A stretch of 31,988 bases of DNA from a virus (IMGVR_UViG_3300008448_007598:1-31988); one strand, 5' to 3'; shown: positions 759 through 30,521, counted from the stretch's first letter. Program-made: numbers and translations. The notes: generated by a model not told the origin, from the sequence alone.

Positions 759-1712
759 ATGAAAAAAATAGTGTACATTACAGGATGTCTTGGATTCATT
801 GGATCATATATTACTCGTCTTTGCTTACAACGAGGTTGGTATGTCAAGGGTGTGGATAAAATGACATATGCTGCAAATAAAGATTTATTGAATGAATTCA
901 AACAATATGATAACTTTTCGTTTGTACATTGTGATATAAATGATCTTAAATTTTTATATGATTGTGATTATATAATTAATACCGCAGCAGAAACACATGT
1001 TGGCAATTCTATTACAAATAGCGATGATTTTATTAAGTCAAATATTAATGGTGTACATAATATTTTAGAACTAATACGCAATTATAGACAAGAAACTGGA
1101 AAGATGCCAACTTTATTGCATTTCAGTACAGATGAAGTATATGGGGATATTACAGAAGGGGCACATACTGAATCTGATATACTTAAACCATCAAATCCAT
1201 ATTCTGCAACAAAAGCAGCAGCAGATATGTTAATAATGGCATGGGCAAGAACTTATGGAATACCATATGTTATTGTAAGACCAACAAATAATTATGGAAT
1301 TGGACAATACGTAGAAAAATTAATTCCAAAGACATGCAAATATTTAAATTTAGGACGAAAGATTCCACTTCACAACAAAGGAACTCCAATACGAAATTGG
1401 TTACATGCAGAAGATACAGCAATGGCAACTTTAACTATTATAGATAAAGAAATCAAAAATGAAATATACAATATTTGTGGTGGTTATGAACAATCTAATT
1501 TAGAAACAGTTTGTAAAATTTTAAAAATTTATGGAATATATGAAAAAAATATTGATTCATATATTGATTTTTCTTGCAATAGACAAGGACAAGATGTAAG
1601 ATATGCGTTGGATGATTCTAAATTAAAATCAATAGGTTGGAATCCTATTAAAGTGTTTGATACTGAGATGGTTAATATTGTAGATTACTACAAAAATAAA
1701 TTTATATGGTGA
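759..1712 (+). CDS. dTDP-glucose 4,6-dehydratase-like NAD-dependent sugar dehydratase
   Basis: An extended SDR enzyme of 317 residues. It has the N-terminal NAD-binding glycine motif TGCLGFIG (residues 8-15), the RmlB-type catalytic STDEVYG (T124, D125, E126) and the Y148-x3-K152 pair in NPYSATK. A substrate-binding stretch, RPTNNYGIGQYVEKLIPK, also closely follows the RmlB pattern (TNNYGP..PEKLIP). RmlB converts dTDP-glucose to dTDP-4-keto-6-deoxyglucose. The Asp-Glu pair argues against CDP-glucose dehydratases, which carry DK here. No nucleotidyltransferase lies in the window, so the activated sugar must come from upstream genes or the host. At 317 residues it is a little shorter than bacterial RmlB (about 355). 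The product probably feeds the 4-keto-sugar enzymes downstream. Confidence 0.82.
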   Translation: MKKIVYITGCLGFIGSYITRLCLQRGWYVKGVDKMTYAANKDLLNEFKQYDNFSFVHCDINDLKFLYDCDYIINTAAETHVGNSITNSDDFIKSNINGVHNILELIRNYRQETGKMPTLLHFSTDEVYGDITEGAHTESDILKPSNPYSATKAAADMLIMAWARTYGIPYVIVRPTNNYGIGQYVEKLIPKTCKYLNLGRKIPLHNKGTPIRNWLHAEDTAMATLTIIDKEIKNEIYNICGGYEQSNLETVCKILKIYGIYEKNIDSYIDFSCNRQGQDVRYALDDSKLKSIGWNPIKVFDTEMVNIVDYYKNKFIW

Positions 1713-1716: not shown

Positions 1717-2514
1717 ATGAATACAAGAGAATTTAAATGTGTAAAGTTACTTACGGATCTGATTGAAAATGAAGGATTGATTGGAATTAAAACTTCTTTT
1801 GAGGACGAAGGTGCATTGTTCAACGAAACAATTCGTCTTAAAGAAATATGCAATCAATCAAAAACAAAATTAACATTAAAAATCGGTGGACCAGAAGCAA
1901 TTAGAGATATCAAAGATTCTTTAATTATTGGTGTAAAAGGATTAGTTGCACCAATGGTTGAATCAGAATTTGGTCTTAAAAAATTCATTCAATCTGCAAA
2001 AACCTATATTCCCAGTGACTCTCTTTCATCAATTCAATTAAATATCAACGTAGAAACAATAACTGCTGTTGGTAATGTTCAAAAAATGTTGGATTTACCA
2101 GAAGCAAATGATCTATATGGTGTGACTGTTGGAAGAGTCGATTTAGTTTCATCAATGGGCAAAAATAGAAATTATGTGAATAGTGATGAAGTATATTCTA
2201 TAGTTCGTAATGTGTTTATTAAAGTTAAAGAAAAGGGTCTTAAGTTATGTCTAGGTGGTGCAGTTTCTGTTGATTCATTACAATTTCTTAAAAAAATTCA
2301 TTCTGAAGGATTGCTTGATAAATTTGAAACAAGATATGCAATCTACGATCCATCGATTGCTCTTAAGAATTTACCAAGAGCATTATCTAAGGGGCAAATG
2401 TTCGAATATGAATGGTTACAGTGTAAGCACGAATATTATACTTCTCTTGCAAATCAAGATATAAAAAGAATTCAAATGATTCAGGATCGAATTAATCAAT
2501 CTATAGATGGATGA
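1717..2514 (+). CDS. HpcH/HpaI aldolase / citrate lyase family protein
   Basis: A 265-residue TIM-barrel-type protein of the phosphoenolpyruvate/pyruvate superfamily. The visible pattern is a LKIGGPEA strand, a GVKGLVAPMVES segment (the family's usual APMV/IE region), the strand INVETI and the signature GVTVGRVDLVSSMG, which matches the family's VGxxDLxxSLG with its metal-binding Asp. Members use a divalent metal and a pyruvate enolate in aldol or retro-aldol reactions. In this locus it could build or split a C-C bond on a sugar or cyclitol precursor, possibly with pyruvate, which the ThDP enzyme downstream may also use. The substrate is unknown. It starts 4 nt after the dehydratase stop; 48 nt of AT-rich spacer follows. 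Confidence 0.72.
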   Translation: MNTREFKCVKLLTDLIENEGLIGIKTSFEDEGALFNETIRLKEICNQSKTKLTLKIGGPEAIRDIKDSLIIGVKGLVAPMVESEFGLKKFIQSAKTYIPSDSLSSIQLNINVETITAVGNVQKMLDLPEANDLYGVTVGRVDLVSSMGKNRNYVNSDEVYSIVRNVFIKVKEKGLKLCLGGAVSVDSLQFLKKIHSEGLLDKFETRYAIYDPSIALKNLPRALSKGQMFEYEWLQCKHEYYTSLANQDIKRIQMIQDRINQSIDG

Positions 2515-2562: not shown

Positions 2563-3198
2563 ATGAAAATATTAGTAACTGGTGGATCTAGAGGTATTGG
2601 TAAATCTATAGTTGAAAAATTTATCAAACATGGACATGATATTTGGTATCCAACTCGAAAAGAACTAAATCTTTCTAATAAAATATATTTAAATAATCCA
2701 AAATATGATATTATTGTAAATAATGCAGGAATTAATCCTCTTCAAGATATAATTAATATTTCAGATGAAGAAGTAATGAGAGTTAATTATTTTTCTCCAT
2801 TTGAGATAATACAACAATGTCTACCATATATGATAGAACAAAACTATGGTAGGATAGTTAATATTGGAAGTATATGGATTGACCTAGCAAAGCAAAAAAG
2901 AGCAGCATATAGTGCAAGTAAACATGCACTACATTCATTGACCAAATCACTAACTGCTGAATTTGCACATAAAAACATTTTAACAAATACGATATCTCCA
3001 GGATTTATTGGCACAGATCTGACATATCAAAACAATAGCAAAGATGATATTAATAATATAGTCAAGACTATACCAGTTGGAAGATTGGGATTACCAGAAG
3101 AAATAGCAAATTTTGTTTACTATATTTCTGTTGAGAATAATTTTATGAGTGGACAAAACATTATAATTGATGGAGGATATACATGCACAGCACATTAA
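2563..3198 (+). CDS. Short-chain dehydrogenase/reductase (classical SDR)
   Basis: A complete classical SDR of 211 residues. It shows cofactor motif TGGSRGIG (residues 6-13), the NNAG motif near residue 52, a catalytic Ser in NIGS, the YSASK Tyr-Lys pair near residue 117, and the C-terminal SPGFIGTDL and DGGYT segments typical of the family. It is slightly short (usual 240-260). It probably reduces a keto group of a nucleotide sugar or cyclitol with NAD(P)H, but it also resembles FabG-type reductases and the substrate cannot be read from sequence. Its 3' end overlaps the cyclase gene by 16 nt, so the two are translationally linked. Confidence 0.8.
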   Translation: MKILVTGGSRGIGKSIVEKFIKHGHDIWYPTRKELNLSNKIYLNNPKYDIIVNNAGINPLQDIINISDEEVMRVNYFSPFEIIQQCLPYMIEQNYGRIVNIGSIWIDLAKQKRAAYSASKHALHSLTKSLTAEFAHKNILTNTISPGFIGTDLTYQNNSKDDINNIVKTIPVGRLGLPEEIANFVYYISVENNFMSGQNIIIDGGYTCTAH

Positions 3199-4199
3199 AT
3201 GTTCAGTCTAAAATTAAAAATTATTCAATTGATTTTATTTCTGATATAAATCAAATAATTAATCTTATTTTTACTACAAATACTATAACATTTATTGATA
3301 CTAATGTTGTTAAATTATATCCTGAATTGAATTTGCCAAATATTGTATCTATTGATTGTAATGAAAATCAAAAAAGTTTGGAAGGAACTCATTTAATATA
3401 TTCATCTCTTGTTGATCGAAAAGCAAATATTAATACTAAATTAATTATTATTGGTGGTGGTATATTACAGGATTTGGTTGGTTTTTGTGCCTCTACTTAT
3501 TGTAGAGGTATTGATTATATTTTTATTCCAACAACATTGTTATCACAGGCAGACAGTTGCGTTGGTGGAAAAACATCTCTTAACTTTAAAAATAAAAAAA
3601 ATATATTGGGAACTTTTTATCCACCTACTAAAATTATAATTTATTCTAAATTTACCAATACGCTTTCAAAATTAGATTTGATTAGTGGATTTGGTGAAAT
3701 TTATAAATTTTATATTTTACAAAATAATATAAAAAATTTTAATTTAAAATCAGATTTAACACAAATGATTTATGATGGATTAAAATTTAAAATTGATATT
3801 TTATCAAGAGATGAATTTGACACGGGAGAGCGTAAATATTTAAATTTTGGACATACATTTGGACATGCATTAGAAACAACATCTTCATATAAAATTCCAC
3901 ATGGAATTGCCGTTATAATTGGATCTATAATTGCTGTTTCTTTATCAAGAGAATTAGGATATACTGTAAATAATTTTGAAAAAATTTTAGAAGAAGGACT
4001 TAATCTTCTAAAGAATAGTGATATTTATTTTGAACAAGAATGGTTTGAATTTGATAAATTGATTGAAACAGTAAAATCTGATAAGAAAAGTACAGGTAAA
4101 TTGACAATGGTATTAATAGATAATAAACCATTTTTACGAAACATAGAGGAGTATGATACACTGAAAAATATTATAAGGAAAATACATGAGATTATCTGA
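3183..4199 (+). CDS. 3-dehydroquinate synthase-like cyclase (AroB superfamily)
   Basis: A 338-residue protein (AroB is about 360) with NAD-binding IIGGGILQDLVGF near residue 90, then PTTLLSQADSCVGGKTSLN with the catalytic Asp and Lys. The metal ligands are also visible: Glu of GFGEIYK (about 173), His of RKYLNFGHTFGHALE (about 223 and 227) and His of IPHG (about 240). The full set of dehydroquinate synthase residues I can recognise is present, so it should be active. The superfamily also includes sugar-phosphate cyclases (2-epi-5-epi-valiolone synthase, 2-deoxy-scyllo-inosose synthase), so the product may be a cyclitol rather than dehydroquinate. No other shikimate gene is present. It overlaps the SDR upstream by 16 nt and the ThDP gene downstream by 14 nt. 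GC is very low (about 25%). Confidence 0.82.
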   Translation: MHSTLNVQSKIKNYSIDFISDINQIINLIFTTNTITFIDTNVVKLYPELNLPNIVSIDCNENQKSLEGTHLIYSSLVDRKANINTKLIIIGGGILQDLVGFCASTYCRGIDYIFIPTTLLSQADSCVGGKTSLNFKNKKNILGTFYPPTKIIIYSKFTNTLSKLDLISGFGEIYKFYILQNNIKNFNLKSDLTQMIYDGLKFKIDILSRDEFDTGERKYLNFGHTFGHALETTSSYKIPHGIAVIIGSIIAVSLSRELGYTVNNFEKILEEGLNLLKNSDIYFEQEWFEFDKLIETVKSDKKSTGKLTMVLIDNKPFLRNIEEYDTLKNIIRKIHEII

Positions 4200-5913
4200 T
4201 TATGTAATTCAATTTTTAAGAGATCAATATAATGTTGATACTATTTTTACTGTATCTGGTGGTGGATGCATATTCTTAATAGATTCTTTAGGTAGCACTG
4301 AAAATGTTAAATATATTGCAACTCATCATGAACAAGCAGCAGCAATTGCTGCTGAAGGTTATGCTAGAATAAATAATAAACTTGGAGCATGTATAGTTAC
4401 AAGTGGTCCTGGTGGAACAAATACTATAACTGGAACTCTTTGTAGTTGGTTAGATTCTATTCCTGTTATTGTTATTAGTGGTCAAGTCAATAAAGAAATG
4501 ACTACAAACTATACAAATTTGCCACTAAGACAACTTGGTGATCAAGAATTTAATATTGTAGAATCTGTAAAAAATATGACAAAATATGCAATTCAAGTAA
4601 ATGATGGAAATGAAATAAAATATCATTTAGAAAAAGCATGTAAATTGGCAACAACTGGTAGACCAGGACCAGTATGGATAGATATTCCATTAAATGTCCA
4701 GTCTATGGATATAAATCCAGATAATCTTATTGGATATAATGAAGAAGTTCCAGCATATACTCCAGATGAAACTCTCGTTGATTTAATAATTAAAAAATGG
4801 TCTAGTGCTAAAAAACCACTGTTGATATTGGGTAATGGTGTAAGATTAAGTGGTGGAGTTGATTTAATTCGTTCGGTTCTTAATAAAACAAATATTCCAA
4901 CAATAACTGCTATCAATGGGAATGATATTGTAAACTCAGATTATAGGTATTATTATGGTAGATTTGGAACACATGCACAAATTTGTGCAAATACTCTTTT
5001 AAATGAATGTGATTTTCTTTTAACAATTGGAACTAGATTATATGTAAGACAAACTGGATATAATTTTGAGAGTTTTGCTAAACAAGCATATAAAGTATAT
5101 GTTGATATAGATAAAAATGAATTAACAAAACCAACATTACACCCAGATACCATAATACATGCGGATGCTAAAAAGTTTATAGAGTCTTTACTCAAACATA
5201 ATTTACCTTTAACTGATCCAATTTGGTTGGATGAATGTGATAAAATTAACACTGCTCCAAAAGTTTTACAGAGACATAGAGATAATGTTGATTATGTCAG
5301 TCATTATGCATTTATAGAAGAATTATCTAAAGTTTTGCCTAAAGATCATCATGTAATAACAAGTGATGGATCAGCGAATGTTGTTACTATGCAAGTTCTT
5401 GATTTATCAGGAGATCAGAGATTGATAACTAATACTGGATGTGCTCCAATGGGATATGGACTTCCAGCAGCATTAGGTGGTTCAATTCATCATAAAATCA
5501 TTTGTATTGAAGGTGATGGTAGTCTTCATTTGAATATACAAGAACTTCAAACAATGAAACATTATAATTTACCAATTAAACTTATTCTTTTAAATAATGA
5601 TGGTTATCTTTCAATCAAGATAACACAAAATACATTCTTTAATAAAAAATATGTTGCCTCGGAAAAAAGTAGTGGAGTTACATTTCCATTGTTTGAAAAA
5701 ATAATTAAAGCATATGATATTCCATATTTTAGCATAAAAACTAATAAAGATATTCAACCGACATTAAACACTTTTTTACAGCAAGATGGTCCTTGTATTT
5801 GTGAAGTGTTTACTGATCCAGAAGAATGTCATGAACCAAAAGTTATGGCAAAACTAGGACCAGATGGTAAATTTATTCCTGGAGAATTAAAAAATATTCA
5901 ATGGATAAAATAA
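4186..5913 (+). CDS. Thiamine-diphosphate-dependent enzyme, acetolactate synthase family (YerE-like candidate)
   Basis: A full-length three-domain ThDP enzyme of 575 residues. The N-terminal Pyr domain carries the activating Glu49 in HHEQAAA and the GPGGTN motif. The central domain runs to about residue 350. The C-terminal PP domain carries the ThDP-Mg motif GDGS (about 443) ending in NND (about 470). These enzymes decarboxylate pyruvate or a similar acid and transfer the C2 unit to an acceptor. Beside a 3-deoxysugar dehydrase (6682) and a small reductase (5901), the closest known parallel is yersiniose synthesis, where YerE adds a C2 branch to a 4-keto-3,6-dideoxysugar and YerF reduces it. 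That parallel is inference. Ordinary acetolactate synthase or a cyclohexanedione hydrolase relative cannot be excluded. The start has an AAGGA at 4175-4179. Confidence 0.8.
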   Translation: MRLSDYVIQFLRDQYNVDTIFTVSGGGCIFLIDSLGSTENVKYIATHHEQAAAIAAEGYARINNKLGACIVTSGPGGTNTITGTLCSWLDSIPVIVISGQVNKEMTTNYTNLPLRQLGDQEFNIVESVKNMTKYAIQVNDGNEIKYHLEKACKLATTGRPGPVWIDIPLNVQSMDINPDNLIGYNEEVPAYTPDETLVDLIIKKWSSAKKPLLILGNGVRLSGGVDLIRSVLNKTNIPTITAINGNDIVNSDYRYYYGRFGTHAQICANTLLNECDFLLTIGTRLYVRQTGYNFESFAKQAYKVYVDIDKNELTKPTLHPDTIIHADAKKFIESLLKHNLPLTDPIWLDECDKINTAPKVLQRHRDNVDYVSHYAFIEELSKVLPKDHHVITSDGSANVVTMQVLDLSGDQRLITNTGCAPMGYGLPAALGGSIHHKIICIEGDGSLHLNIQELQTMKHYNLPIKLILLNNDGYLSIKITQNTFFNKKYVASEKSSGVTFPLFEKIIKAYDIPYFSIKTNKDIQPTLNTFLQQDGPCICEVFTDPEECHEPKVMAKLGPDGKFIPGELKNIQWIK

Positions 5914-6680
5914 ATATTTTATTAACTGGTGGCAATGGTTATATTGCTAAAAGTTTAAAAGAAAATTTAAATTATAATATAACAACTATAACCCGCACAG
6001 ATTTTGATCTGTGCGATGATATTTCAACAAATTTATGGTTTAAAGATAAATTTTTTGATATTGTTATTCATACAGCAGTATGTGGTGGGAGTAGATTAAA
6101 AACTGACGAACATACTGTTCTGGAAAACAATATAAAAATGTACAAAAATTTGTATGATCAAAAAGATCATTTTAATAAATTTATTACATTTGGGTCTGGT
6201 GCAGAATTATTTGCATCACAATCACCTTATGGTAAAAGTAAAAAAATAATAGCAGAATCTATTTACGATACTAAAAATTTTTATAATCTTCGTATATTTG
6301 GTGTGTTTGATGAAAATGAATTATCTACAAGATTTATAAAAGCAAATCTTATAAGATATATTAATAATGAACCAATTATTATTCATAGTAATAAAATTAT
6401 GGATTTTTATTATATGAAAGATCTAATTTCTTTAGTTGATTATTTTATAAAAAATAATAATACTCCAAAAGAAGTTAATTGTAGTTATGATATGAAATTT
6501 ACATTAAAGCAAATTGCAGAATTTATAAATTCACTAGACAATCACAAAGTTCCTGTTATAATTGAAAACCAAAAGCATTTAGAATTTTATTGTGATTCTG
6601 CACACGACCTAAATATAAATGAAATAGGACTACAACAGGGTATAATTGATACTTATAACATTCTAAAACATAGAGGTTAA
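5901..6680 (+). CDS. NAD-dependent epimerase/dehydratase-family sugar reductase
   Basis: A short extended-SDR protein (259 residues) with the dinucleotide motif TGGNGYIA near residue 9, the central TAVCGG strand end, a GSGAE serine region and the catalytic YGKSK (Tyr-x3-Lys). Its size and compact C-terminal half resemble 4-keto-sugar reductases such as RmlD or YerF more than dehydratases. It overlaps the ThDP gene by 13 nt and is followed 1 nt later by the E1-type dehydrase, so the three are probably translated together. It is a good candidate to reduce a keto group left by the ThDP enzyme or the dehydrase. A perfect 9-bp inverted repeat lies inside it at 5994-6015. Confidence 0.72.
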   Translation: MDKINILLTGGNGYIAKSLKENLNYNITTITRTDFDLCDDISTNLWFKDKFFDIVIHTAVCGGSRLKTDEHTVLENNIKMYKNLYDQKDHFNKFITFGSGAELFASQSPYGKSKKIIAESIYDTKNFYNLRIFGVFDENELSTRFIKANLIRYINNEPIIIHSNKIMDFYYMKDLISLVDYFIKNNNTPKEVNCSYDMKFTLKQIAEFINSLDNHKVPVIIENQKHLEFYCDSAHDLNINEIGLQQGIIDTYNILKHRG

Positions 6681-6681
6681 T

Positions 6682-8028
6682 ATGATTGATGTGAATTTAT
6701 CTGGTGATGAAATTGATCGTAAGATTAAAGAACTTGTTCGATTAAAAAGAAAACAAACAAAAAAATGGATTCAAGGGAAGGATACAGTTCAATATGCTGG
6801 TAATTATTTTGATGATGAAGAATTTATTGCTGGTATAGATTGTTTTCTTGATGGTTGGTTGGTTCTTGGAGATCAAGGTCTTCGTTTCGAAAGACAATTC
6901 AGAGAAAAACTTGGAAAACAACACGGTGCTTTAGTAAATAGCGGATCAAGTGCTAATCTTTTAATGATTACTGCATTAAAGTCTAAAAGACTTTATAATT
7001 TTGGTCCAGACACAAAGATAATTACTCCTGCTGCTGGTTTTCCAACAACAATTAATCCAATTATCCAAAATGGTTTTCAACCAGTTTTTGTCGATATTGA
7101 AGTAGATACTTTAAATCTAAATTTAGATCAAGTTGAACAAGCAGCAAAAAATGGTGCTAAAGTTCTTGCATTTGCACATGTACTTGGTAATCCACCTAAT
7201 ATGGATAAGTTAATGGAGATTGTTGACAAGTATAATCTTATTCTTCTTGAAGATTGCTGTGATGCTCTTGGTAGTAAATATGATGGTAAATTACTAGGAT
7301 CTTTTGGTCAATTTGCATCATGTTCATTTTATCCTGCACATCATATTACAATGGGAGAAGGAGGATTTGTTGCATCTAAAACTGATGAACAAGATACAGT
7401 AATTAAAAGTCTTCGTGAATGGGGAAGAGGTTGTTATTGTTCTGGCAAGGGTGCTTCTTGTCTTCGAAATGGAATGTGTAAGAAGAGATTCAGTGAATGG
7501 TTGCCAAGTTTTCCTGGAGTAATATTTGATCACAAATATGTCTATGAAGAGATTGGTTATAATCTAAAACCAATTGAAATGCAAGCGGCAATAGGATTAG
7601 TTCAACTTAAGAAGTTAGATAAGATTATTGAACTTCGTAAGAAAAATTTTAATCGTTTATATCAAATCTTTTCAAAATATGATAAGATTTTTCATCTACC
7701 AAAAGCAACTGAAAAATCAGATCCTTCTTGGTTTGCTTTTCCTTTAACCTTAAGAGATGGTATAGGATTAAAAAGAAATGAATTTACTATGTATCTAGAA
7801 GATAATAAGATACAGACTAGAAATTATTTTGGTGGAAATGTTCTTCTTCAACCAGCATATGAAGGAATTTATTCTGGTAATGCAAAGAAAGATTTTCCAG
7901 TCGCAACAAAAGTTACTACTGACACATTCTTTTTAGGGACTAGTCCAGTCATAACAGATGAACAACTGGATTACATTGAAACAGTAGTTGATAATTATTT
8001 TGATAAAGCAGATAATATTAGAGTTTAA
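6682..8028 (+). CDS. rfbH: NDP-4-keto-6-deoxyhexose 3-dehydrase (E1/RfbH type, PLP and [2Fe-2S])
   Basis: A 448-residue protein of the DegT/DnrJ/EryC1/StrS fold. The lysine that normally binds PLP is replaced by His220 in SFYPAHHITMGEGG, the hallmark of C-3 dehydrases that remove a hydroxyl instead of transferring an amine. The cysteines that hold a [2Fe-2S] cluster in the Yersinia CDP-sugar dehydrase E1 (C193-x57-C-x-C-x7-C) are matched here by C193, C251, C253 and C260. Only the last spacing differs, by one residue. The reaction should give a 3-deoxy-4-keto sugar. E1 normally takes electrons from a dedicated reductase (E3). None is in the window, so a host ferredoxin or an out-of-window gene would be needed. 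The sugar's nucleotide (CDP, dTDP or GDP) is not determined. An AGAGG precedes the ATG. Confidence 0.9.
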   Translation: MIDVNLSGDEIDRKIKELVRLKRKQTKKWIQGKDTVQYAGNYFDDEEFIAGIDCFLDGWLVLGDQGLRFERQFREKLGKQHGALVNSGSSANLLMITALKSKRLYNFGPDTKIITPAAGFPTTINPIIQNGFQPVFVDIEVDTLNLNLDQVEQAAKNGAKVLAFAHVLGNPPNMDKLMEIVDKYNLILLEDCCDALGSKYDGKLLGSFGQFASCSFYPAHHITMGEGGFVASKTDEQDTVIKSLREWGRGCYCSGKGASCLRNGMCKKRFSEWLPSFPGVIFDHKYVYEEIGYNLKPIEMQAAIGLVQLKKLDKIIELRKKNFNRLYQIFSKYDKIFHLPKATEKSDPSWFAFPLTLRDGIGLKRNEFTMYLEDNKIQTRNYFGGNVLLQPAYEGIYSGNAKKDFPVATKVTTDTFFLGTSPVITDEQLDYIETVVDNYFDKADNIRV

Positions 8029-8878: not shown

Positions 8879-9516
8879 TAAATTATTTTTATGGTCAATT
8901 TAATCCTCCAGTTGATTATATCATTAGAACTAGATACTTTTTGAATCAAGATATTGGAAATTGTATAGAAATAGGTGCAGTAGATGGAATAATGTTATCC
9001 AATACATATCATTTCGAACAAAATGGATGGAATTCTCTTTGTATAGAACCTATTCCTTCATACTATGAAATACTAAAAAATAATAGAAAAAATACATTAA
9101 ATTATGCAATTTCTAGTAATACTTCTGATGATATGATATTTAATTTAGTTAGTATGAATACTGGAAATAGATCATCGATCAGTGGTTTAGAACTAGACAC
9201 ACGATTAGTTGATTTACATCAACAAATGAATCTTAATCCTAAAATAGAAACAATTAAAGTTAAATCTAGAAGATTAGATTGGTGTATAGAAAATCATTTC
9301 AATCATGAAACCATAGACTTTATAAGCATAGATACAGAAGGAAGTGAATTAGACGTATTGAAATCTTTTAATGTAAATAATTACAATATAAAATTATTAG
9401 TTATTGAAAATAATTATAATGATTCAATTATAGAAGAATATTTAAAAGATTTTGGATGGATTAAAGACATTAGAGTTGAAGTGAATGATTTCTATATTAG
9501 GAGTAAAAATGATTAA
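8875..9516 (+). CDS. FkbM-family SAM-dependent methyltransferase
   Basis: A 213-residue Rossmann methyltransferase. It has the SAM-binding region CIEIGAVDG (about residue 31), an acidic IEPIP turn after the second strand, the ETIDFISIDTEGSELDVLKS segment diagnostic of FkbM proteins, and LLVIENNY. FkbM enzymes O-methylate sugars, polyketides or glycans. In this locus capping or decorating a sugar hydroxyl is likely. The start is set by the 4-nt ATGA overlap with the upstream stop. The gene ends 8 nt into the coding sequence of the next methyltransferase, so the two are probably co-translated. Confidence 0.85.
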   Translation: MINYFYGQFNPPVDYIIRTRYFLNQDIGNCIEIGAVDGIMLSNTYHFEQNGWNSLCIEPIPSYYEILKNNRKNTLNYAISSNTSDDMIFNLVSMNTGNRSSISGLELDTRLVDLHQQMNLNPKIETIKVKSRRLDWCIENHFNHETIDFISIDTEGSELDVLKSFNVNNYNIKLLVIENNYNDSIIEEYLKDFGWIKDIRVEVNDFYIRSKND

Positions 9517-10735
9517 ATTATTTAGTCTAGGTAAATTATGCATTTCCGATTTCGTAAAAAATCAAGATTCTGCAAATGAACTACCTGTTGAGTTGGACAT
9601 GTTACTAGACGAACAAACTGGAATGGTTCGACTTGGGACTATAGCACCATTCAATAAAATGTATGGTAAATATTGGTATAGATCTGGCATCAATACTACA
9701 ATGCGTAATGAACTAAAATCAATTACAGAATCTATAACAAATGCTATAAAATTAAATGAAAATGATGTTTGGTTAGATATTGCATGTAATGATGGAACAT
9801 TATTGAGTTATGTTCCTAAAAATCTATTAAGAATAGGAATAGATCCTGCGGATGATTCTTTTGTAAGAGAATCCAAAAATCATGCAAATTTAATAATACA
9901 AGATTATTTTAATTCTAAATCTTTTAAAAATAGTAAATTTGGTTCTCTTAAAGCAAAAGTAATTACTTCAATTGCTATGTTTTATGATTTAGAACATCCA
10001 GAAACTTTTTTAACAGATTTATATGATATATTGGATGATAATGGATTATGGGTTCTTCAATTATCTTATACACCATTAATGCTAGAACAATTGGCATTTG
10101 ATAATATCTGTCACGAACATATTTATTATTATTCTTTAACTAATATTAAAAATTTATTAGAAAAATATAATTTTTCTATACTAGATGTACAACTTAATGA
10201 TATAAATGGTGGTTCTTTTAGATTATATGTAAAAAAGAAAAATACTAATCCTGATTTTTTTGGAACAAAACCTTATAGAGATGTTTGCAATTTTAGAATA
10301 AATTCAATTTTAGAATATGAAAAAACTTTAAATTTAGACAAGAAAGAAACATGGATAAATTTTTACAACAGAATAGAAGAATTAAAAGAAATTACTGTTA
10401 ACTTCATAAAAGAAGAAAAGAAAAAAGGTAAAAAAATATGGGGATATGGTGCTTCTACAAAAGGAAACACACTGTTACAATATTTTAATTTAGATAATAC
10501 ATTAATAGATGGTATTGCAGAAAGAAATATTGATAAATTTGGATTATATACTATTGGTACAAATATTCCAATATTTTCTGAAAATGAAATGCGCGAAGCG
10601 AATCCAGATTACTTATTGATTCTTCCCTGGCATTTTATTGATGAATTCTTAAAAAGAGAAAGTGAATTTATTAAAAAGGGTGGAAAATTTATAGTACCTT
10701 GTCCAGAATTTAAAGTAATAGGAGTGGATAGATAA
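9509..10735 (+). CDS. NDP-hexose C-methyltransferase-like protein (TylCIII/NovU/TcaB9 architecture)
   Basis: About 408 residues in three blocks. A short N-terminal block ends in MVRLGTIAPFNKMYG. A SAM-dependent domain follows (WLDIACNDGTLLSY and the family hallmark CHEHIYYYS). The C-terminal Rossmann-like domain carries GYGASTKGNTLLQYF. This is the Methyltransf_13/12/14 layout of sugar C-3 methyltransferases. The usual N-terminal zinc ribbon looks lost: only one cysteine (in GKLC) remains where the family has four. The start at 9509 has AGGAG at 9499-9503 with a 5-nt spacer; a longer in-frame ATG at 9485 lacks such a site. It would add a methyl branch to a 4-keto sugar. Whether it stays active without the zinc ribbon is unknown. 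Confidence 0.8.
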   Translation: MIKLFSLGKLCISDFVKNQDSANELPVELDMLLDEQTGMVRLGTIAPFNKMYGKYWYRSGINTTMRNELKSITESITNAIKLNENDVWLDIACNDGTLLSYVPKNLLRIGIDPADDSFVRESKNHANLIIQDYFNSKSFKNSKFGSLKAKVITSIAMFYDLEHPETFLTDLYDILDDNGLWVLQLSYTPLMLEQLAFDNICHEHIYYYSLTNIKNLLEKYNFSILDVQLNDINGGSFRLYVKKKNTNPDFFGTKPYRDVCNFRINSILEYEKTLNLDKKETWINFYNRIEELKEITVNFIKEEKKKGKKIWGYGASTKGNTLLQYFNLDNTLIDGIAERNIDKFGLYTIGTNIPIFSENEMREANPDYLLILPWHFIDEFLKRESEFIKKGGKFIVPCPEFKVIGVDR

Positions 10736-10993: not shown

Positions 10994-11917
10994 ATGAATA
11001 CATTAATAACTGGTGGTTCTGGTTTACTGGGAAGTGCATTGAATATAAAAAATTCATTTAAACCTTCCAGTAAAGAATTAAATTTATTAAATTATCAAGA
11101 ATTAAAAACATATATTATCAATAATAATATTGAAAAAATAATACACTGTGCCGCATTAGTCGGTGGAGTTCATGCAAATAAAGATTTAATATATGATTTT
11201 TTTTCTAAAAATTTAGAAATAAATTTAAACATATTAAATGCATGTAAAGAATTTAAATTAAATAATTCTATTTTTATTCTTTCTACTTGTGTTTTTCCAG
11301 CAGAAGCAGAATTTCCATTAACTGAAAATTTATTACACGATGGAGAACCACATAATACTAATTATGGTTATGCATATGCAAAACGAATGTTAGAAGTTGG
11401 ATCTAGAACTTTAAATGAACAATACGGTATAATTACAACTTGTATAATACCTTGTAATTTTTATGGACCAAATGATAATCATCATCTAGACTATGGGCAT
11501 GTTATTCCAAGTTTGATACATAAATGTCATATTGCGAAAGAAACAAATTCAGATTTCATAATATGGGGTTCAGGTATACCCGAAAGAGAATTTATTTATG
11601 TTAATGATCTCGCTAACGTAGTAGAAACTATTTCTGAAGATCAAACATATTCTAATAAACAATATCCAAATAAAATTATAGTTTCTTCTGGAATTTCAAC
11701 AACAATTTCAAAAATTGCAAATTTAGTAGCAAAAGAAATGAATTTTAAGGGCAACATTGTTTATGACAGAAGTATGCCAGATGGAATTTTACGCAAACCC
11801 ACAGATACTAAAGTATTTAATAATTTATTTCCAAATTTTAATTGGACTAGCATAGAAGATGGAATAAAAGAATCAGTTAATTATTTTAATAAAAATTATC
11901 CTAAAGTAAGAAAATAA
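10994..11917 (+). CDS. fcl: GDP-L-fucose synthase-like 3,5-epimerase/4-reductase
   Basis: A 307-residue extended SDR with TGGSGLLG at the N terminus, [21 protein letters not shown] (catalytic Ser and Cys region) and [10 protein letters not shown] (Tyr-x3-Lys near 126-130). It also has NFYGPNDN, then [10 protein letters not shown]. These are the recognised features of GDP-fucose synthase (Fcl/WcaG/GMER), which epimerises and reduces GDP-4-keto-6-deoxymannose. The next gene, 1 nt downstream, encodes the enzyme that makes that substrate, which strongly supports the call. Length matches the family (about 310-320). The final sugar could be L-fucose, or the 4-keto intermediate could be diverted to the deoxy and branching enzymes upstream. 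Confidence 0.85.
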
Positions 11918-11918: not shown

Positions 11919-12971
11919 ATGAAAAAAATAGCATTAATAACAGGAATTTCTGGTCAAGACGGATCATATCTAGCAGATTTACTTTTATCTAAAGGTTACG
12001 AAGTACATGGAATTATTCGTAGATCTTCTTCGTTTAATACATCAAGACTAGAACATCATATTCAAAATCCAGAAGTATATAATAAATCTTTATTTTTACA
12101 CTATGGAGACTTGACAGATTATACAACAATTGAAAAATTAATTCATAAGTGTAATCCAGATGAAATCTATAATCTTGGAGCACAAAGTCATGTTAAAGTT
12201 TCATTTGATGCCCCCGTATATACAGGTGAAACAGTTGGAATTGGTACATTAAATGTATTAGAAGCGATAAGAACTGTACAAACACTTACAGGAAAACAAA
12301 TACGCTATTATCAAGCAAGTAGTAGTGAAATGTTTGGTAAGGTTCAAGAAGTACCACAAAAAGAAACAACTCCATTATATCCAAGATCTCCTTATGGTTG
12401 TGCAAAAGTATATGCTCATCATCTCACTATAAATTATAGAGAATCATACGATATACACGCTTCATGTGGAATTTTGTTTAACCACGAAAGTCCACGTAGA
12501 GGGGAAACATTTGTAACTCGTAAAATTACTAGAGCAGTTGGTAGAATTTATCAAGGTCTTCAGAAGAAATTATATCTTGGTAATCTAGATGCATATCGTG
12601 ATTGGGGATTTGCAGGAGACTATGTTGAAGCAATGTGGATGATGTTGCAACAAGATAAACCTGACGATTATGTAGTTGCTACTGGAAAAATGATAACTGT
12701 TCGAGAATTCTGTCAAAAGGCATTTGCCCGATACAGTATGAATTATGAAGAATATGTTGAAGTTGATGAAAAATACTATCGTCCTGCTGAAGTAGATCAA
12801 CTGTTAGGTAATCCAACTAAAGCAAAAGAGAAACTAGGATGGGAACCAAAAACAGATGTATATCAACTAATTGATATGATGGTAGATCATGACTTTGAGT
12901 TAGCAAGAAAAGAAAGAATCATTGAGATATATGATAAAAAATTAAATCCTACTGGTTCTAGTTTTTTATAA
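11919..12971 (+). CDS. gmd: GDP-mannose 4,6-dehydratase
   Basis: 350 residues, the normal length. It has [13 protein letters not shown] (NADP motif), [14 protein letters not shown] with the Arg/Ser cofactor-phosphate contacts, [18 protein letters not shown] with the catalytic Ser-Glu, YGCAKVYAH (Tyr-x3-Lys), [20 protein letters not shown], and the C-terminal [13 protein letters not shown]. This is one of the clearest identifications here. It converts GDP-mannose to GDP-4-keto-6-deoxymannose, feeding the fucose synthase just upstream. GDP-mannose must come from the host or genes outside the window. Its stop codon overlaps a TATAAATA octamer that probably starts late transcription of the next gene. 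Confidence 0.95.
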
Positions 12972-12974: not shown

Positions 12975-12993
12975 CAATTAAAGGATATTGATT

Positions 12994-14211
12994 ATGAAAC
13001 CAAAAGTCGCTCTCTGCATGATCGTTAAGAATGAATCTCATATCATTCACGAATGCTTAAATTCAATTTACAAGTATGTTGATTACTGGATTATTTCAGA
13101 TACTGGTTCAACAGATGGAACTCAGGATATAATTCAAAACTTTTTCAAAGAAAAAGGAATTCCAGGAGAACTCCACCAAGATGAGTGGAAGAACTTCGGT
13201 CATAATCGAACACTAGCACTTCGTCATGCGGATGGAAAAGCAGACTATGTTTGGATGATTGATGCTGATGATAAAGTAGAAGGTAATTTTGTATTTCCAG
13301 ATAAGATGGAAGCAGATGGTTATGTTCTACGAATCGGTAAACCAGACTTTTCTTGGTGGAGAACTCAAATATTCAAGACAGAATCTAAGTGGGAATATAG
13401 AGGAGTTCTTCATGAATATCCAGCATGTTCAATTAAAGAACAACCAATTCTTATGAAACTTGAAGGAGATTATAGAGTAGATGCTAGAACTCTAGGTGCA
13501 AGAAATGTTGGTATCTCTGTTATTGAGAAATATACAAGAGATGCGGAAACATTAGAAAAAGCATTACTTGATGAACCAGGTAATACAAGATATCAGTTTT
13601 ATCTTGCACAATCATATTTTGATTCTCAGCAATATGAAAAGGCAATTGACGCATATAGAAAAAGAGCAGAAATGGGCGGATGGGCGGAAGAAGTTTATTA
13701 TTCACTTTATCGTATAGGAATCGCAAGAGCACTGCTAGATCGTCCATGGCCTGAGATTATGTCATCTCTATTGGATGCATATAATTATAGACCACAGCGA
13801 GTTGAAGCATTGGTTCATATTTCTCAGGTTCTTCGACAAAAATATGATCAACCAGCAGCAGCATTTATTTTTGCTAGACAAGCAGCAGAAGCACCTTTCC
13901 CTCAAGAAGAAATATTATTCGTTCCAGATATTGTTTATAAGTTCCATGCTCTTGATGAAGTGGCAGCGACTGCTTTTTACGCAGGAAGACCAGAAATTGG
14001 ATATCTTGCAGCAAAGAAACTTCTTGAAGAAGGAAGAGTTCCACCCGATCAAGTTCAAAGAGTTGAAAACAATTTTCAACAATATCGAAAGATCATGGAG
14101 CAGATTGGGGAACAGCGAAAGCAGTTTGAAGAACAACAGAAAAAGGTAATGGAACAAAAACCACAACCAAAACCTGTCAAATTTAAGTCACGAAAGAAAG
14201 TTAAAACTTAA
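12994..14211 (+). CDS. Family 2 glycosyltransferase with TPR-like region
   Basis: About 405 residues. The N-terminal GT-A domain has VALCMIVKNE, DTGSTDGTQ and the metal-binding MIDADDK (about residue 88), the layout of WaaE-like GT2 enzymes. The region from about residue 185 to 330 is helical with TPR-like spacing (TRYQFYLAQSYFDSQQYEKA). The C-terminal tail (from about 350) is a charged coiled coil rich in Gln, Glu and Lys. ATG 12994 is chosen over an in-frame TTG at 12988 because AAGGA at 12981-12985 gives an 8-nt spacing. A late promoter precedes it, so it may act during particle assembly, perhaps glycosylating virion proteins, or on host glycans. Acceptor unknown. Confidence 0.85.
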   Translation: MKPKVALCMIVKNESHIIHECLNSIYKYVDYWIISDTGSTDGTQDIIQNFFKEKGIPGELHQDEWKNFGHNRTLALRHADGKADYVWMIDADDKVEGNFVFPDKMEADGYVLRIGKPDFSWWRTQIFKTESKWEYRGVLHEYPACSIKEQPILMKLEGDYRVDARTLGARNVGISVIEKYTRDAETLEKALLDEPGNTRYQFYLAQSYFDSQQYEKAIDAYRKRAEMGGWAEEVYYSLYRIGIARALLDRPWPEIMSSLLDAYNYRPQRVEALVHISQVLRQKYDQPAAAFIFARQAAEAPFPQEEILFVPDIVYKFHALDEVAATAFYAGRPEIGYLAAKKLLEEGRVPPDQVQRVENNFQQYRKIMEQIGEQRKQFEEQQKKVMEQKPQPKPVKFKSRKKVKT

Positions 14212-26227: not shown

Positions 26228-26770
26228 ATGAACACACTAAAAGTTTACAAAAAATATTCAGACGTTAAAAACATAGAATTTGCCACAAGAGATTCTGCAT
26301 GTTTTGATATCTCAGCATATATTCCATATCAACAATCAGTAAAAGCATTTACTACTACAAATGATGAGGTAGAAAAACTCGCTATTCAAGAGCAAAATAC
26401 TGAATGTTTTATTGAACTACCTCCACAATGGAGAGCATTAATTCCTACTGGTCTAATTCTAGATATCCCCACATCTTATTGTGTAAAAATTTATGCTAGA
26501 TCTGGTCTTTCTACTAAGAAAGGATTGAATCTTATAAACTCTACTGGTATAATTGACTCTGATTATATACAAGAACTTTTTATTCCAATTTTCAATAATT
26601 CTCAACAGAAATTGAGAATTTCAAATGGAGACAGAATTGCTCAAGGAAAAGTTGAAGTATTGATTAGACATAAGGTTGAATATATTAATGAAAGACCAGA
26701 AAGAAAAAGTGATCGTAATGGTGGATTCGGATCAACAGGAGTCGAAGGAATGTCTCCAGTCGTTTTCTGA
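26228..26770 (+). CDS. dut: dUTPase (dUTP diphosphatase)
   Basis: 180 residues with all five trimeric dUTPase motifs: I, DSACFDI (22-28); II, ARSGLS (about 92-97); III, GIIDSDY (about 106-112); IV, NGDRIAQ (about 135-141); V, GGFGSTG (about 164-170, the phosphate-binding C-terminal arm). It splits dUTP to dUMP and pyrophosphate, keeping uracil out of phage DNA and supplying dTMP synthesis. An insertion of about 25 residues follows motif I (FTTTNDEVEKLAIQEQNTEC), as in several phage enzymes. No ribosome site precedes the ATG; the promoter directly upstream implies a leaderless start. The 3' end overlaps the methylase reading frame by about 50 nt. Confidence 0.95.
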   Translation: MNTLKVYKKYSDVKNIEFATRDSACFDISAYIPYQQSVKAFTTTNDEVEKLAIQEQNTECFIELPPQWRALIPTGLILDIPTSYCVKIYARSGLSTKKGLNLINSTGIIDSDYIQELFIPIFNNSQQKLRISNGDRIAQGKVEVLIRHKVEYINERPERKSDRNGGFGSTGVEGMSPVVF

Positions 26771-28082
26771 TATTCAAGATCATTTCAAGAATGCACCATC
26801 TGAAGATCGAATTCCATTCATAGTTGGTTCTGATTGGGATGCACTGACTAACAACTTTACAAAAGAACAAATCAAGGATGGTTTTGCCGAATATATCATA
26901 ACAAATAATATTCCTTTTCCATATAGACAAATAGAAAAGGATGATGTTGTATTTAAATTTAATAATCTTAAGAATATTTCATATTCTGATTTTATTATGG
27001 ACAACTCATGTGAAGTAGTCGAGAAATACAATGATTATAAGTATCCTTTTTCGACTCATGGAAAATTTGTAATATCATTTGGTCATTATCATAATGATAT
27101 AAGCAATTATTATCAACAGAAAAATAGATACGATTGCTCTTCATATACCTTTAAATCTCCAAATGAAATCTGGAACAGTAAAGATCTTCTTTCAAAGATG
27201 AACTGGACTTTTTGGAGATTTGACGTAAATGGAATCAATATTGATAAGATTCGTGGATCGTTCAGACTTGGATCTTACGTTGCTACACAATTTAAACCTC
27301 ATGTAGCAAAAACAATTTATGATTTTGTTGCGAATAAAACAAAAGATAAAGTTAAATCAACTCTAGACATCAGCATGGGATGGGGTGATCGTCTTGCTGG
27401 ATTCTATACATCAAAGATGAACCAATACGTTGGATTTGATCCAAATCCTACAGTGTTTGAAGTTTATAAAACACAGTGCAAAGATTATGAACTTTTTTTA
27501 TCTGGAGAAGATCCACTAATAACAAATTTCAAAATCAAAGTTAACGACAATACATACGATGCATTTCATTGTATAGGTAAATCTGGTAAAGAAGTATATG
27601 CATATAATGCCCCAGCAGAAGAAATGTTGCATATAATTTATGCAAATAAATTTGATTGCATATTCACATCTCCACCATATTTTTCCACAGAAAAGTATTC
27701 AGAACAGTCTCCTGAAAATCAATCATGGTTCAAATATCCAGAATATAACAACTGGTGGAACAAGTTCTTTAAACCAGTGATGACTGCCTGTTATCGATCA
27801 TTAAAAGATGACGGATTGATGTTGATTAATATCATGGATCCAACTATTGATGGGACTAGATACAATACGTGCGATCAGTTGGTAGACCATGTGATTTCCA
27901 TCGGAGGTTATTTTGATGGTCAGATTGGAATGAGAATTAAGCAACGACCGAAAAACATAGATGCAAAGAGTTTGAATAAGCATTTACTCAACACATTTAT
28001 TGAGAATATTTGGTGCTTTTCGAAGAATAAATTTGATTTATCTTTTAAACATGCTACACTAGAATCACTTTTTGGAGATTAA
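26718..28082 (+). CDS. DNA amino-methyltransferase-like protein (SPPY motif)
   Basis: About 454 residues. A substrate-binding region near residue 190 (SFRLGSYVATQFKPHVAKTI) precedes the SAM motif I LDISMGWGDRLAGF (about 216), the acidic turn YVGFDPNP, and the catalytic motif IV TSPPYFSTEKYS (about 317). TSPPY is the form typical of N4-cytosine and some N6-adenine DNA methylases. The first 200 residues have no known match to me and may form the target-recognition part. There is no restriction gene beside it, so it probably protects phage DNA. The open frame extends upstream to a TTG at 26676 with ATGs at 26688 and 26718. I prefer 26718 because it minimises overlap with dut, but the start is not certain. 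Confidence 0.78.
   Translation: MVDSDQQESKECLQSFSDIQDHFKNAPSEDRIPFIVGSDWDALTNNFTKEQIKDGFAEYIITNNIPFPYRQIEKDDVVFKFNNLKNISYSDFIMDNSCEVVEKYNDYKYPFSTHGKFVISFGHYHNDISNYYQQKNRYDCSSYTFKSPNEIWNSKDLLSKMNWTFWRFDVNGINIDKIRGSFRLGSYVATQFKPHVAKTIYDFVANKTKDKVKSTLDISMGWGDRLAGFYTSKMNQYVGFDPNPTVFEVYKTQCKDYELFLSGEDPLITNFKIKVNDNTYDAFHCIGKSGKEVYAYNAPAEEMLHIIYANKFDCIFTSPPYFSTEKYSEQSPENQSWFKYPEYNNWWNKFFKPVMTACYRSLKDDGLMLINIMDPTIDGTRYNTCDQLVDHVISIGGYFDGQIGMRIKQRPKNIDAKSLNKHLLNTFIENIWCFSKNKFDLSFKHATLESLFGD
28033..28060 (+). promoter_or_regulatory. Sigma70-type extended -10 promoter before the DUF1599-polymerase pair
   Basis: TTGATT (28033-28038), 16-nt spacer, TACACT (28055-28060) with TG at 28052-28053, inside the 3' end of the methylase gene. 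It is very like the dut promoter: both contain TTGATTTAT and CATGnTAnACT. It would give a leader of about 17 nt with GGAG before the ATG at 28084. Confidence 0.5.
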
Positions 28083-28083: not shown

Positions 28084-28431
28084 ATGACAAATATTGAACT
28101 ATTCAAAATTCATAAGGAATTATGTACAAATGCATTAGATTTAATGCAAAAGAAAAATCATGATTATGCTGGAAGCAAAGGAAATGAACCTTTTGCAAAT
28201 TTCACAAGAAGCGAAGCAATGGGAATTACGACAACAGAAAAGGCGATGCTCGTAAGAATGTTAGATAAAATGAGTCGTCTTTCATCATTTACTGATTCTG
28301 GAGAATTCAAAGTAGAAGATGAGAAATTGCAAGACACTATAATTGATGTGATTAATTATTCCGTATTGCTATATGCGTATATGTCTCAAAAGATTCAAAA
28401 AGAATATACTATTATCGAACTTCAAAAATGA
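28084..28431 (+). CDS. DUF1599-like protein (nucleotide-modification-associated / MazG-like helical)
   Basis: 115 residues, all-helical in appearance. KKNHDYAGSKG, EPFANFTRSEA, KAMLVRMLDKMSRLSSF and VEDEKLQDTIIDVINYSVLL follow the DUF1599 pattern, grouped with nucleotide-modification-associated and MazG-like proteins. Conserved Asp/Glu residues in the last two helices (DEKL..D...D) would suit metal-dependent nucleotide binding. ATG 28084 is chosen over an in-frame TTG at 28072 because of GGAG at 28074-28077. Its stop overlaps the polymerase ATG by 4 nt (ATGA), so the two are translated together. A nucleotide-pool or DNA-modification role is plausible; the reaction is unknown. Confidence 0.8.
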   Translation: MTNIELFKIHKELCTNALDLMQKKNHDYAGSKGNEPFANFTRSEAMGITTTEKAMLVRMLDKMSRLSSFTDSGEFKVEDEKLQDTIIDVINYSVLLYAYMSQKIQKEYTIIELQK

Positions 28432-29909
28432 AATATTATACAAACATCTACTACAATTTTGACGAGATCTTGGTAGTAGAGAATGTAAATGGAAAAAAGG
28501 ATTACATTCGGGAAAAGTTCAACCCGAGTGTTTTTCTACCATCAAGAACAAAAACAAATTATAAGTCTATCTCTGGAGAGTATCTTGCAGAGATGACTTT
28601 TGATTCTTATAGTTCGTATAAAGAATTTACTACGAAGTATAAAGAAATTCCAGACTTCCATATTCACGGTGATATTGCTTCAGAATATCAGTTCATTAAT
28701 AAACGATACGGAACAAATATTGATTATAATTTTTCAGAACTTGATATCATGTATATTGATATTGAGACTTCTTCTGAAAAAGGATTTCCTTCTATTGAAG
28801 ATCCTGAAGAGCAAGTGATTGCAATTTCTTTAGAATCTACGAAGACGGGAAAGGCAACATTTTGTCTTGGCACATTCAACGCAACAGATGATCGAAAGAT
28901 CTTTGAGTTTGACGATGAAGAAGAACTTCTAAAGAAGTTTATTAATTACTTTGCAGATAATTATCCAGACATCGTAACTGGATGGAACATTCGATTCTTC
29001 GACTTTCCATATCTCATTAAACGAACAAATAAAATTCTTGGAAAGAAACACTCCAAGAATATTTCACCTTGGGGCATTCTCAAGGAACGATTTGTGACAC
29101 GAAGAAATGATAAAGAAGAACTTTGCTATGATATCGTTGGAATCTCAATTCTAGACTATTACGAACTGTATAATACTTTCACATACGTCAAGCAAGAATC
29201 ATATAGTCTGAACCATATTTCATATGTTGAATTGGGAGAAAAGAAACTCTCATACGATGAGTTCGAAAGCATTACTGAATTCTACAAGAAAGATTTTCAG
29301 AAGTTCATTCAATACAATATTCGTGACGTTGAACTTGTTCAGAAACTAGAAGAGAAACTTAAACTGATCGAACTTGCAGTTGCACTTGCGTATTCGGCAG
29401 GAGTTAATTATCAAGACGTATTCTCACAGGTAAGAACGTGGGACGTTATTATCTACAACTACTTGTCTGAAAAGGGAATCGTAATTCCTCCAAAGAGAAA
29501 GTTTAGAAAAGATGAACAATATGCTGGAGCATATGTAAAAGAACCAATCGTAGGAATGCATAAGTGGGTAGTCTCGTTCGACCTTAACTCTCTATATCCG
29601 CATCTCATAATGCAATTCAATATTTCTCCCGAAACATTAACTGAGCAGGGAATGAGAGGAACAATCTCTCCAGAAGGAATATTGAAGAACGGTAGAAACA
29701 GTATGCTCTTCATCGAAGAACATAAAAAGAATGATCTATCTGTTGCAGCAAACGGAACAACATACCGAAAAGATATTCGTGGATTTCTTCCAGAACTTAT
29801 GGAAAATATGTATCAAGATCGAAAAGATTTCAAAAAGAAAATGATTGAGTCGAAAAAGAATCTAGAAGAAATTAATAAAGAACTTAAGCGAAGAGGGTTG
29901 CAATCCTAG
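28428..29909 (+). CDS. 43: Family B DNA polymerase, N-terminal half only (gp43A-like)
   Basis: 493 residues of a T4 gp43-type polymerase. The 3'-5' exonuclease motifs are complete: Exo I YIDIETSS (D111, E113), Exo II GWNIRFFDFPY (about 185-195), Exo III YNIRDVELV (about 297). Polymerase motif A, FDLNSLYPHL, is at about 384. The frame then runs through ENMYQDRKDFKKKM and stops at TAG after a charged helix (EEINKELKRRGLQS). Full-length gp43 is about 900 residues. The fingers, motif B (KxxxNSxYG), motif C (DTDS) and thumb are absent, and the next 2 kb do not encode them in any frame I checked. A split polymerase, as known for gene 43 in some Aeromonas T4-like phages, is more likely than a dead gene. 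Confidence 0.9.
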   Translation: MKYYTNIYYNFDEILVVENVNGKKDYIREKFNPSVFLPSRTKTNYKSISGEYLAEMTFDSYSSYKEFTTKYKEIPDFHIHGDIASEYQFINKRYGTNIDYNFSELDIMYIDIETSSEKGFPSIEDPEEQVIAISLESTKTGKATFCLGTFNATDDRKIFEFDDEEELLKKFINYFADNYPDIVTGWNIRFFDFPYLIKRTNKILGKKHSKNISPWGILKERFVTRRNDKEELCYDIVGISILDYYELYNTFTYVKQESYSLNHISYVELGEKKLSYDEFESITEFYKKDFQKFIQYNIRDVELVQKLEEKLKLIELAVALAYSAGVNYQDVFSQVRTWDVIIYNYLSEKGIVIPPKRKFRKDEQYAGAYVKEPIVGMHKWVVSFDLNSLYPHLIMQFNISPETLTEQGMRGTISPEGILKNGRNSMLFIEEHKKNDLSVAANGTTYRKDIRGFLPELMENMYQDRKDFKKKMIESKKNLEEINKELKRRGLQS

Positions 29910-30486: not shown

Positions 30487-30521
30487 TACCCCGTGGTGAA
30501 ACGGTATCACAGGAGACTTAT
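30487..30521 (+). pseudogene. tRNA 5'-half remnant (Leu-like)
   Basis: The sequence reads as the first half of a tRNA: acceptor 5' strand TACCCCG, TG, D-arm GTG-AAACGGTAT-CAC, one linker base, anticodon-stem 5' strand GGAGA and CTTA of a loop. It then runs directly into tRNA-Gln with no 3' half. GTGGTGAAAC is shared with the intact tRNA-Leu at 31208. GGAGACTTA is typical of tRNA-Leu(UAA). I read it as a deletion relic. Confidence 0.45.

Follow-up and report, generated by a model that had tools for sequence, protein, structure and literature searches.

What sugar would a phage make with a YerE-like carboligase, and from what would the enzyme draw the branch that it adds? The question arises from a virus record of 31,988 bases (the stretch analyzed here, hereafter the window), in which three neighboring genes were originally predicted to form a functional unit: a ThDP enzyme, a small keto-sugar reductase and an E1-type 3-dehydrase, working by the logic of the yersiniose pathway. 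For C4-branched higher sugars such as caryophyllose, the papers that we consulted give no account of the origin of the hydroxylated chains. Judged from its genes, the locus appears to belong to a modular pathway for long-branched deoxy sugars, borne by phages and by cells, with a newly recognized donor-supply block, and many uncultured phages appear to carry whole pathways for such branched sugars. An enzyme resembling one of the shikimate pathway was unexpected in a sugar cassette, and it probably helps make the branch.

The sugar cassette and its phage setting

The three predicted genes are intact open reading frames (ORFs) of 575, 259 and 448 aa (g6, g7 and g8 in Table 1), the first two overlapping by 13 bp, and Pfam recognizes in the trio all three TPP_enzyme domains, Epimerase and DegT_DnrJ_EryC1. 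The trio as a functional unit did not survive, since aldolase, SDR and AroB-like genes belong to the unit too. The full order is RmlB-like 4,6-dehydratase, HpcH-type aldolase, SDR, AroB-like gene, ThDP enzyme, SDR and 3-dehydrase; the original prediction had left out the first four, along with a GDP-mannose 4,6-dehydratase farther downstream. Across all cassette genes, dN/dS against the nearest relative (L002) was 0.04–0.23, indicating strong purifying selection and thus that the cassette is not a product of chance. The GDP-fucose-synthase-like SDR and the GDP-mannose 4,6-dehydratase beyond it probably serve a second sugar.

Table 1. Genes of the sugar region, with positions counted in bases of the window.
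Gene	Assignment	Position	Strand	Basis
g2	RmlB-like NDP-sugar 4,6-dehydratase	759..1712	+	GDP_Man_Dehyd/Epimerase; TIGR01181 below cut-off; STDEVYG and YxxxK
g3	HpcH/HpaI-type class II pyruvate aldolase, putative donor C-C bond step	1717..2514	+	PF03328, fold
g4	FabG-like SDR	2563..3198	+	adh_short_C2; pairs with AroB-like gene
g5	AroB-like enzyme, TIGR04425-like, putative phospholyase	3183..4199	+	TIGR04425 score, DHQ-synthase catalytic residues
g6	YerE-like ThDP carboligase (predicted)	4186..5913	+	JanthE 8rph match, clade, E49, GDG at 443
g7	Small NAD-dependent epimerase/reductase-like SDR, putative branch-ketone reductase	5901..6680	+	PF01370, 46.8 bits
g8	E1/RfbH-type PLP/[2Fe-2S] 3-dehydrase	6682..8028	+	NF011936, 478 bits; H220, C193, C251, C253, C266
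	C-methyltransferase-type protein, neighbor	9485..10735	+	PF08484, 158.9 bits
	GDP-fucose-synthase-like SDR, neighbor	10994..11917	+	NF047922, 198 bits, below cut-off 500
	GDP-mannose 4,6-dehydratase, neighbor	11919..12971	+	TIGR01472, 528.7 bits, cut-off 415
	GT2 glycosyltransferase, end of sugar region	12988..14211	+	PF00535

An overlapping contig (L149), identical to the window over 6,844 bp, reaches 6.3 kb farther upstream and carries a T4-like gp45 sliding clamp, the clamp-loader genes gp44 and gp62 and regA (RegA repressor), followed by glycosyltransferase-like genes. The sugar region is followed downstream by genes for the virion and tail fibres and by an ORF for a T4-like DNA polymerase (gp43), whose best identity, 49%, is to cyanophage relatives. 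Because T4-like genes flank both sides, the sugar region belongs to a T4-like phage genome, as the prediction of a phage-borne cassette had held. The polymerase ORF (28428–29909) matches the T4-type model (PHROG 262) only over about its first 490 residues and is followed by tRNA genes (30521–30594 and 31128–31289) and an HNH endonuclease (30643–31137); the polymerase gene looks split. Between the tail genes and the polymerase are a dUTPase-like gene (26228–26770) and a DNA methyltransferase-like gene (26676–28082).

No E3, RfbF, RfbG or RmlA was recognized in the window or the 6.3 kb upstream of it. The predicted absence of E3 and CDP-sugar genes thus extends to this longer segment, with the exception that a 4,6-dehydratase, g2, is present; the idea that E3 or CDP-sugar genes lie directly upstream of the window was dismissed after inspection of the extension. 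It is possible that the host encodes an E3 partner for g8. The g2 protein scored 299.9 bits on TIGR01181, short of the cut-off of 365, and 71 bits on the CDP-glucose dehydratase model, far from its cut-off of 278. Since g2 is RmlB-like and RfbF and RfbG were not found in this segment, the nucleotide used by the phage could be dTDP rather than CDP.

The ThDP enzyme and the 3-dehydrase

The best PDB match of g6 is JanthE (8rph), at 387.5 bits compared with 242 for the best acetolactate synthase (ALS). JanthE, from Janthinobacterium, has been characterized and described as a YerE-like carboligase (PMC12188165). In a tree in which JanthE represented the YerE-like group in place of YerE, ErwE, MMAR_2332 and the bradyrhizose cluster sequences, and whose long branches call for caution, the phage and bacterial ThDP proteins and JanthE formed one clade (100/99) apart from ALS I, II and III and a staphylococcal ALS. 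The g6 protein has the ThDP-activating glutamate E49 and the GDG cofactor motif at 443, and several features are common to it and JanthE or relatives and absent from ALS: an LRQxGDQE insert, the motif NNxGYxSIxxTQ and a C-terminal PK. We therefore predict, in keeping with the YerE logic originally proposed, that g6 is a YerE-like ThDP carboligase, with a keto sugar as its putative acceptor. Firm grouping of the ThDP protein with catabolic acetolactate synthases would have refuted the original proposal, which withstands this test. When plasmids were searched with the ThDP protein, all matches were acetolactate synthases.

The assignment of g8 as an E1-type 3-dehydrase was borne out. It scored 478.3 bits on the NCBIfam RfbH model (NF011936, PRK15407), above the cut-off of 423, and its closest solved structures are those of Yersinia E1 (3bcx/3bb8). 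H220 replaces the PLP lysine, and C193, C251, C253 and C266 align with the E1 cluster cysteines C193, C251, C253 and C261. The predicted E1 numbering was therefore right for H220 and the first three cysteines and wrong for the fourth, which had been given as C260: g8 C266, in a CKKRF motif, lies opposite E1 C261, and g8 C260 aligns with Cys257, an extra cysteine of E1.

All eight of the longer phage contigs examined encode a DegT-family protein with histidine in place of the PLP lysine, of E1 type with cluster cysteines in four and lacking those cysteines, and in that respect ColD-like, in the other four (L061, L063, L064 and L065, where it takes the place of the E1-type dehydrase). A 3-dehydrase is thus a steady partner of the cassette, in two alternative kinds. 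Within the fetched flanks, it was not seen in 12 of the 48 ThDP locus groups described below. E1-type dehydrases about 43–46% identical also occur in a marine single-virus record (H41, MH319723.1) and in H43–H47, which include several Synechococcus phages.

The donor genes and their exchange

HpcH enzymes join pyruvate to aldehydes. The g3 protein belongs to this family by its PF03328 score (33.9 bits, cut-off 25) and by its predicted structure (pLDDT 94), for which the top folds were SbnG and HpaI/HpcH, with Foldseek E-values for HpaI/HpcH down to 3e-9; the conserved E113 and D142 are probable metal ligands. Among 50,697 named phage records, none matched the g3 aldolase. A relative from the HpcH subfamily in Ilyobacter lies among organic-acid genes, a catabolic-looking context that we count against the long-branch reading given below, not as support for it.

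The g5 protein has the fold family of AroB and TIGR04425, and R108, D124, K130, E172, K175, K203, R217, H224, H228, H240 and K301 are invariant in the AroB-like alignment; we take these to be the metal and substrate residues of DHQ synthase, with roles after the A. nidulans enzyme. Its TIGR04425 score of 326 bits (cut-off 400) exceeds its AroB score on TIGR01357 of 243.6 (cut-off 305), but it lies below both cut-offs. Its gene belongs to sugar operons and does not accompany shikimate genes, and g5 is probably not a shikimate enzyme. The TIGR04425 cut-off is passed by two bacterial relatives that share the neighbors of g5, at 470 and 428 bits.

Searching IMG/VR with the ThDP protein produced 15 contigs. 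The block g3-g4-g5-g6-g7 recurs in those not ended early, mostly with an RmlB-like dehydratase in front, and with the 3-dehydrase downstream, upstream or a few genes off; what is conserved is therefore this larger block and not the trio. Phage loci recovered in surveys with AroB and HpcH alignments numbered 78 and 58, respectively, and merged to 84 distinct sets; in most phage loci a g2-type gene adjoins the aldolase. Forty-eight of the 84 sets contain the ThDP gene, all 48 with an aldolase or NeuB and 47 with g7. AroB is present in 37 of the 48, always with a g4-type SDR, and none of the 48 has one of the two alone. Among 53 phage loci with both aldolase and ThDP genes, 39 carry SDR+AroB and 14 an HAD-like gene; none has both and none has neither. 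Because the module's own genes were used to gather these loci, the counts should not be read as population frequencies; the mutual exclusion is independent of that. NeuB forms 2-keto-3-deoxy acids from PEP, and a NeuB-family gene fills the aldolase slot in five loci that lack the aldolase.

The ThDP enzyme changes along with its donor genes. Mapped on the ThDP phylogeny, donor-gene type requires 5 changes, compared with 23.2 when shuffled, and all 33 type-A enzymes form one clade. In a near relative (L154) whose flanks are 75–80% identical to the window at the DNA level, SDR-AroB-ThDP is exchanged for an HAD-like gene and a ThDP enzyme only 48% identical. The HAD-like assignment comes from the motifs DFDGVxH, TxKA and DDKA and from HAD proteins matched weakly in Pfam and PDB; among the fold matches of the low-confidence model (pLDDT 71), which were weak, KdsC-type 3-deoxy-ulosonate-phosphate phosphatases predominated. 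HpcH-type aldolase and HAD-like domain are fused in a 377-aa ORF in two loci (L203 6345–7478 and L204 7983–9116). This is the pattern expected if aldolase plus AroB/SDR, aldolase plus phosphatase, or NeuB plus AroB/SDR supplies the acyl donor of the ThDP enzyme.

Related genes also occur in other combinations. In L126 (2183–14419), L112, L137 and L142, the partners of the SDR and AroB-like genes are a class III aminotransferase and a fusion of a PseF-like cytidylyltransferase with a cupin, and no ThDP gene is present; the L126-type cluster possibly makes a new CMP-activated ulosonic acid. In one phage (L008 1300–3201), a 633-aa protein with nucleotidyltransferase and capsule-phosphatase-like (TIGR01689, 66.6 bits) domains is encoded just upstream of the dehydrase.

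Cellular genomes carry the block as well. By TIGR04425 sampling, 4 of 287 Patescibacteria-phylum genomes and 6 of 244 from another phylum have the AroB-like gene; at an E-value of 1e-85, the family was not found in the 200 Sulfuricurvum-phylum and 299 Paenibacillus-phylum genomes searched. Nine of the ten positive genomes have aldolase, SDR, AroB-like and ThDP genes together, and the tenth, on a 5.4 kb contig, has visible aldolase and AroB-like genes. The bacterial block is ~40% identical to that of the phage and is joined by RfbF, RfbG and RfbH in operons of O-antigen type, so that a YerE-type enzyme here keeps the company originally expected of it: RfbH is present in L048 to L051, a CDP-glucose 4,6-dehydratase in L049 and L051 (481 and 484 bits, cut-off 278) and a glucose-1-phosphate cytidylyltransferase in L048 and L049 (394 and 401 bits, cut-off 300). 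On a Novosphingobium humi plasmid (L207 7037–9807), a polysaccharide region has RfbF, RfbG and an HpcH-type aldolase side by side, and over the 18.8 kb examined neither an AroB-like nor a ThDP gene was recognizable.

Paenibacillus algorifonticola (L020) likewise has RfbH, HpcH and ThDP genes in one operon (RfbH-RfbF-RfbG-HpcH-ThDP), but these are followed by an acylating acetaldehyde dehydrogenase and a 4-hydroxy-2-oxovalerate aldolase where the phage has SDR+AroB. These two enzymes are a known route to 4-hydroxy-2-oxopentanoate. That compound is a donor preferred by ErwE (PMC12247030).

A candidate route to a long-branched sugar

We consider it fairly probable that the product of the cassette is a nucleotide-activated 3,6-dideoxy sugar carrying a long C4 branch, which would end up as a rare surface sugar, and that g3, g4 and g5 make the donor of that branch. 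The substrates, step order, product, branch length and nucleotide that follow are what gene content, conservation, family placement and the swap pattern suggest. For the acceptor, the 4,6-dehydratase would give an NDP-4-keto-6-deoxyhexose, from which g8 would remove O3. For the donor, g3 would form a 3-deoxy-2-ulosonate phosphate from pyruvate and an aldose phosphate, for which erythrose 4-phosphate is a fitting candidate. DHQ synthase acts on a 3-deoxy-2-ulosonate 7-phosphate by oxidation, phosphate elimination, reduction and cyclization. By analogy, g5 could transiently oxidize the ulosonate phosphate and eliminate its terminal phosphate, leaving the 2-oxo group outside any ring, and g4 could reduce the resulting methyl ketone, so that the phosphate-bearing end becomes a methyl in a terminally deoxy 2-oxo acid. 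This acid would be decarboxylated by g6, which would add the acyl unit to the C4 ketone of the 4-keto-3,6-dideoxyhexose, and g7 would reduce the branch ketone. A seven-carbon donor would yield a 3,6-dideoxy-4-C-(1,3,4,5-tetrahydroxyhexyl)-hexose, the constitution of caryophyllose, which bears a 4-C-tetrahydroxyhexyl branch (PMC5706390). We infer this match at the level of constitution; the data leave room for other chain lengths, stereochemistry and nucleotides.

Evenly poised, in our estimate, is the more specific proposal that a DHQ-synthase homologue has turned into a terminal-deoxygenating phospholyase, which together with an SDR makes a methyl-ended 2-oxo acid donor for a YerE-like carboligase from an aldolase-made 3-deoxy-2-ulosonate phosphate, and that phages alter the branch by replacing this block with a phosphatase block. 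As the swap pattern points to specific enzymes of donor synthesis, namely aldolase, AroB-like, SDR or HAD, and lets their products be predicted, the origin of the branch becomes directly testable with small soluble proteins. The relatives in many uncultured phages and bacterial operons bring a long-missing biosynthetic step within reach of experiment.

The main rival takes the AroB-like enzyme as a true cyclase, acting before or after the ThDP coupling, so that the branched sugar would be carbocyclic, along the lines of caryose or bradyrhizose. It draws on the retention in g5 of all DHQ-synthase catalytic residues and on the NCBIfam name of the TIGR04425 family, cyclizing phospholyase; DHQ synthase normally cyclizes, and the non-cyclizing step asked of g5 in the long-branch model is an assumption that counts against that model. 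O-antigens include bicyclic sugars, and the genes for bradyrhizose are known only as an 11-gene cluster with a 4,6-dehydratase (PMC4743980). However, a DHQ-like product would offer the ThDP enzyme no 2-oxo acid to decarboxylate. Moreover, related SDR+AroB pairs adjoin PseF-like cytidylyltransferases, suggesting that the 2-oxo end survives, because these enzymes act on free 2-ulosonic acids. We regard cyclization as unlikely.

Decidedly improbable, to our mind, is a yersiniose-type route, in which the ThDP enzyme takes two carbons from pyruvate and attaches them to the 4-keto-3,6-dideoxyhexose, and the aldolase, SDR and AroB-like enzyme serve another sugar. An E1 with a YerE-like enzyme and an SDR does spell out yersiniose logic, and JanthE takes pyruvate among other donors (PMC12188165), but a pyruvate-fed YerE would not need these three enzymes, an aldolase or NeuB accompanies every ThDP locus group, SDR+AroB is strictly exchanged for HAD and the ThDP lineage follows the donor genes. 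The original YerE logic is thus retained for the ThDP family and the acceptor-half enzymes and given up for the trio as a unit and for the two-carbon branch, with a branch of the ErwE/caryophyllose type fitting better.

A sugar destined for hypermodification of phage DNA, not for a surface glycan, seems very improbable: phages do put sugar-pathway products on DNA, and a phage arabinose-phosphate phosphatase is among the weak fold matches of the HAD protein found in other loci, but the region is rich in glycosyltransferase-like genes beside tail fibre genes and the bacterial operons with RfbFGH are of O-antigen type. It is barely credible that g6 is a metabolic gene of the usual acetolactate synthase-like kind whose neighborhood is accidental, as its top NCBIfam family matches are indeed ALS models but all score far below their cut-offs (at best 348 bits against 738), its clade and motifs are separate, and its neighborhood is conserved.

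The long-branched sugar that we favor can be set against three known systems. In the yersiniose A pathway of Yersinia (DdhC, which is E1, with YerE and YerF), as in the phage, an E1-type 3-dehydrase, a YerE-like carboligase and a small SDR occur side by side. The phage unit differs in its additional genes (aldolase, SDR and AroB-like), in the absence of CDP-glucose genes (RfbF/RfbG) and E3 from the window and 6.3 kb upstream, and in a branch that is probably longer. JanthE (8rph), the closest solved relative of g6, takes long and hydroxylated 2-oxo acids (PMC12188165), and the C-terminal PK motif around its K567 is conserved in g6, whereas its cofactor motif is CDG instead of GDG. ErwE and MMAR_2332, of the erwiniose and caryophyllose pathways, are YerE-like enzymes that use longer, hydroxylated 2-oxo acids on a CDP-4-keto-3,6-dideoxy sugar (PMC12247030, PMC5706390), and both prefer hydroxylated 2-oxo acids (PMC12247030). 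Compared by these published descriptions, which do not describe an AroB-like step (PMC12247030, PMC5706390), the two systems appear to differ from the phage cassette in that step, and the branch carbons and deoxy pattern of caryophyllose are what the phage donor genes would give.
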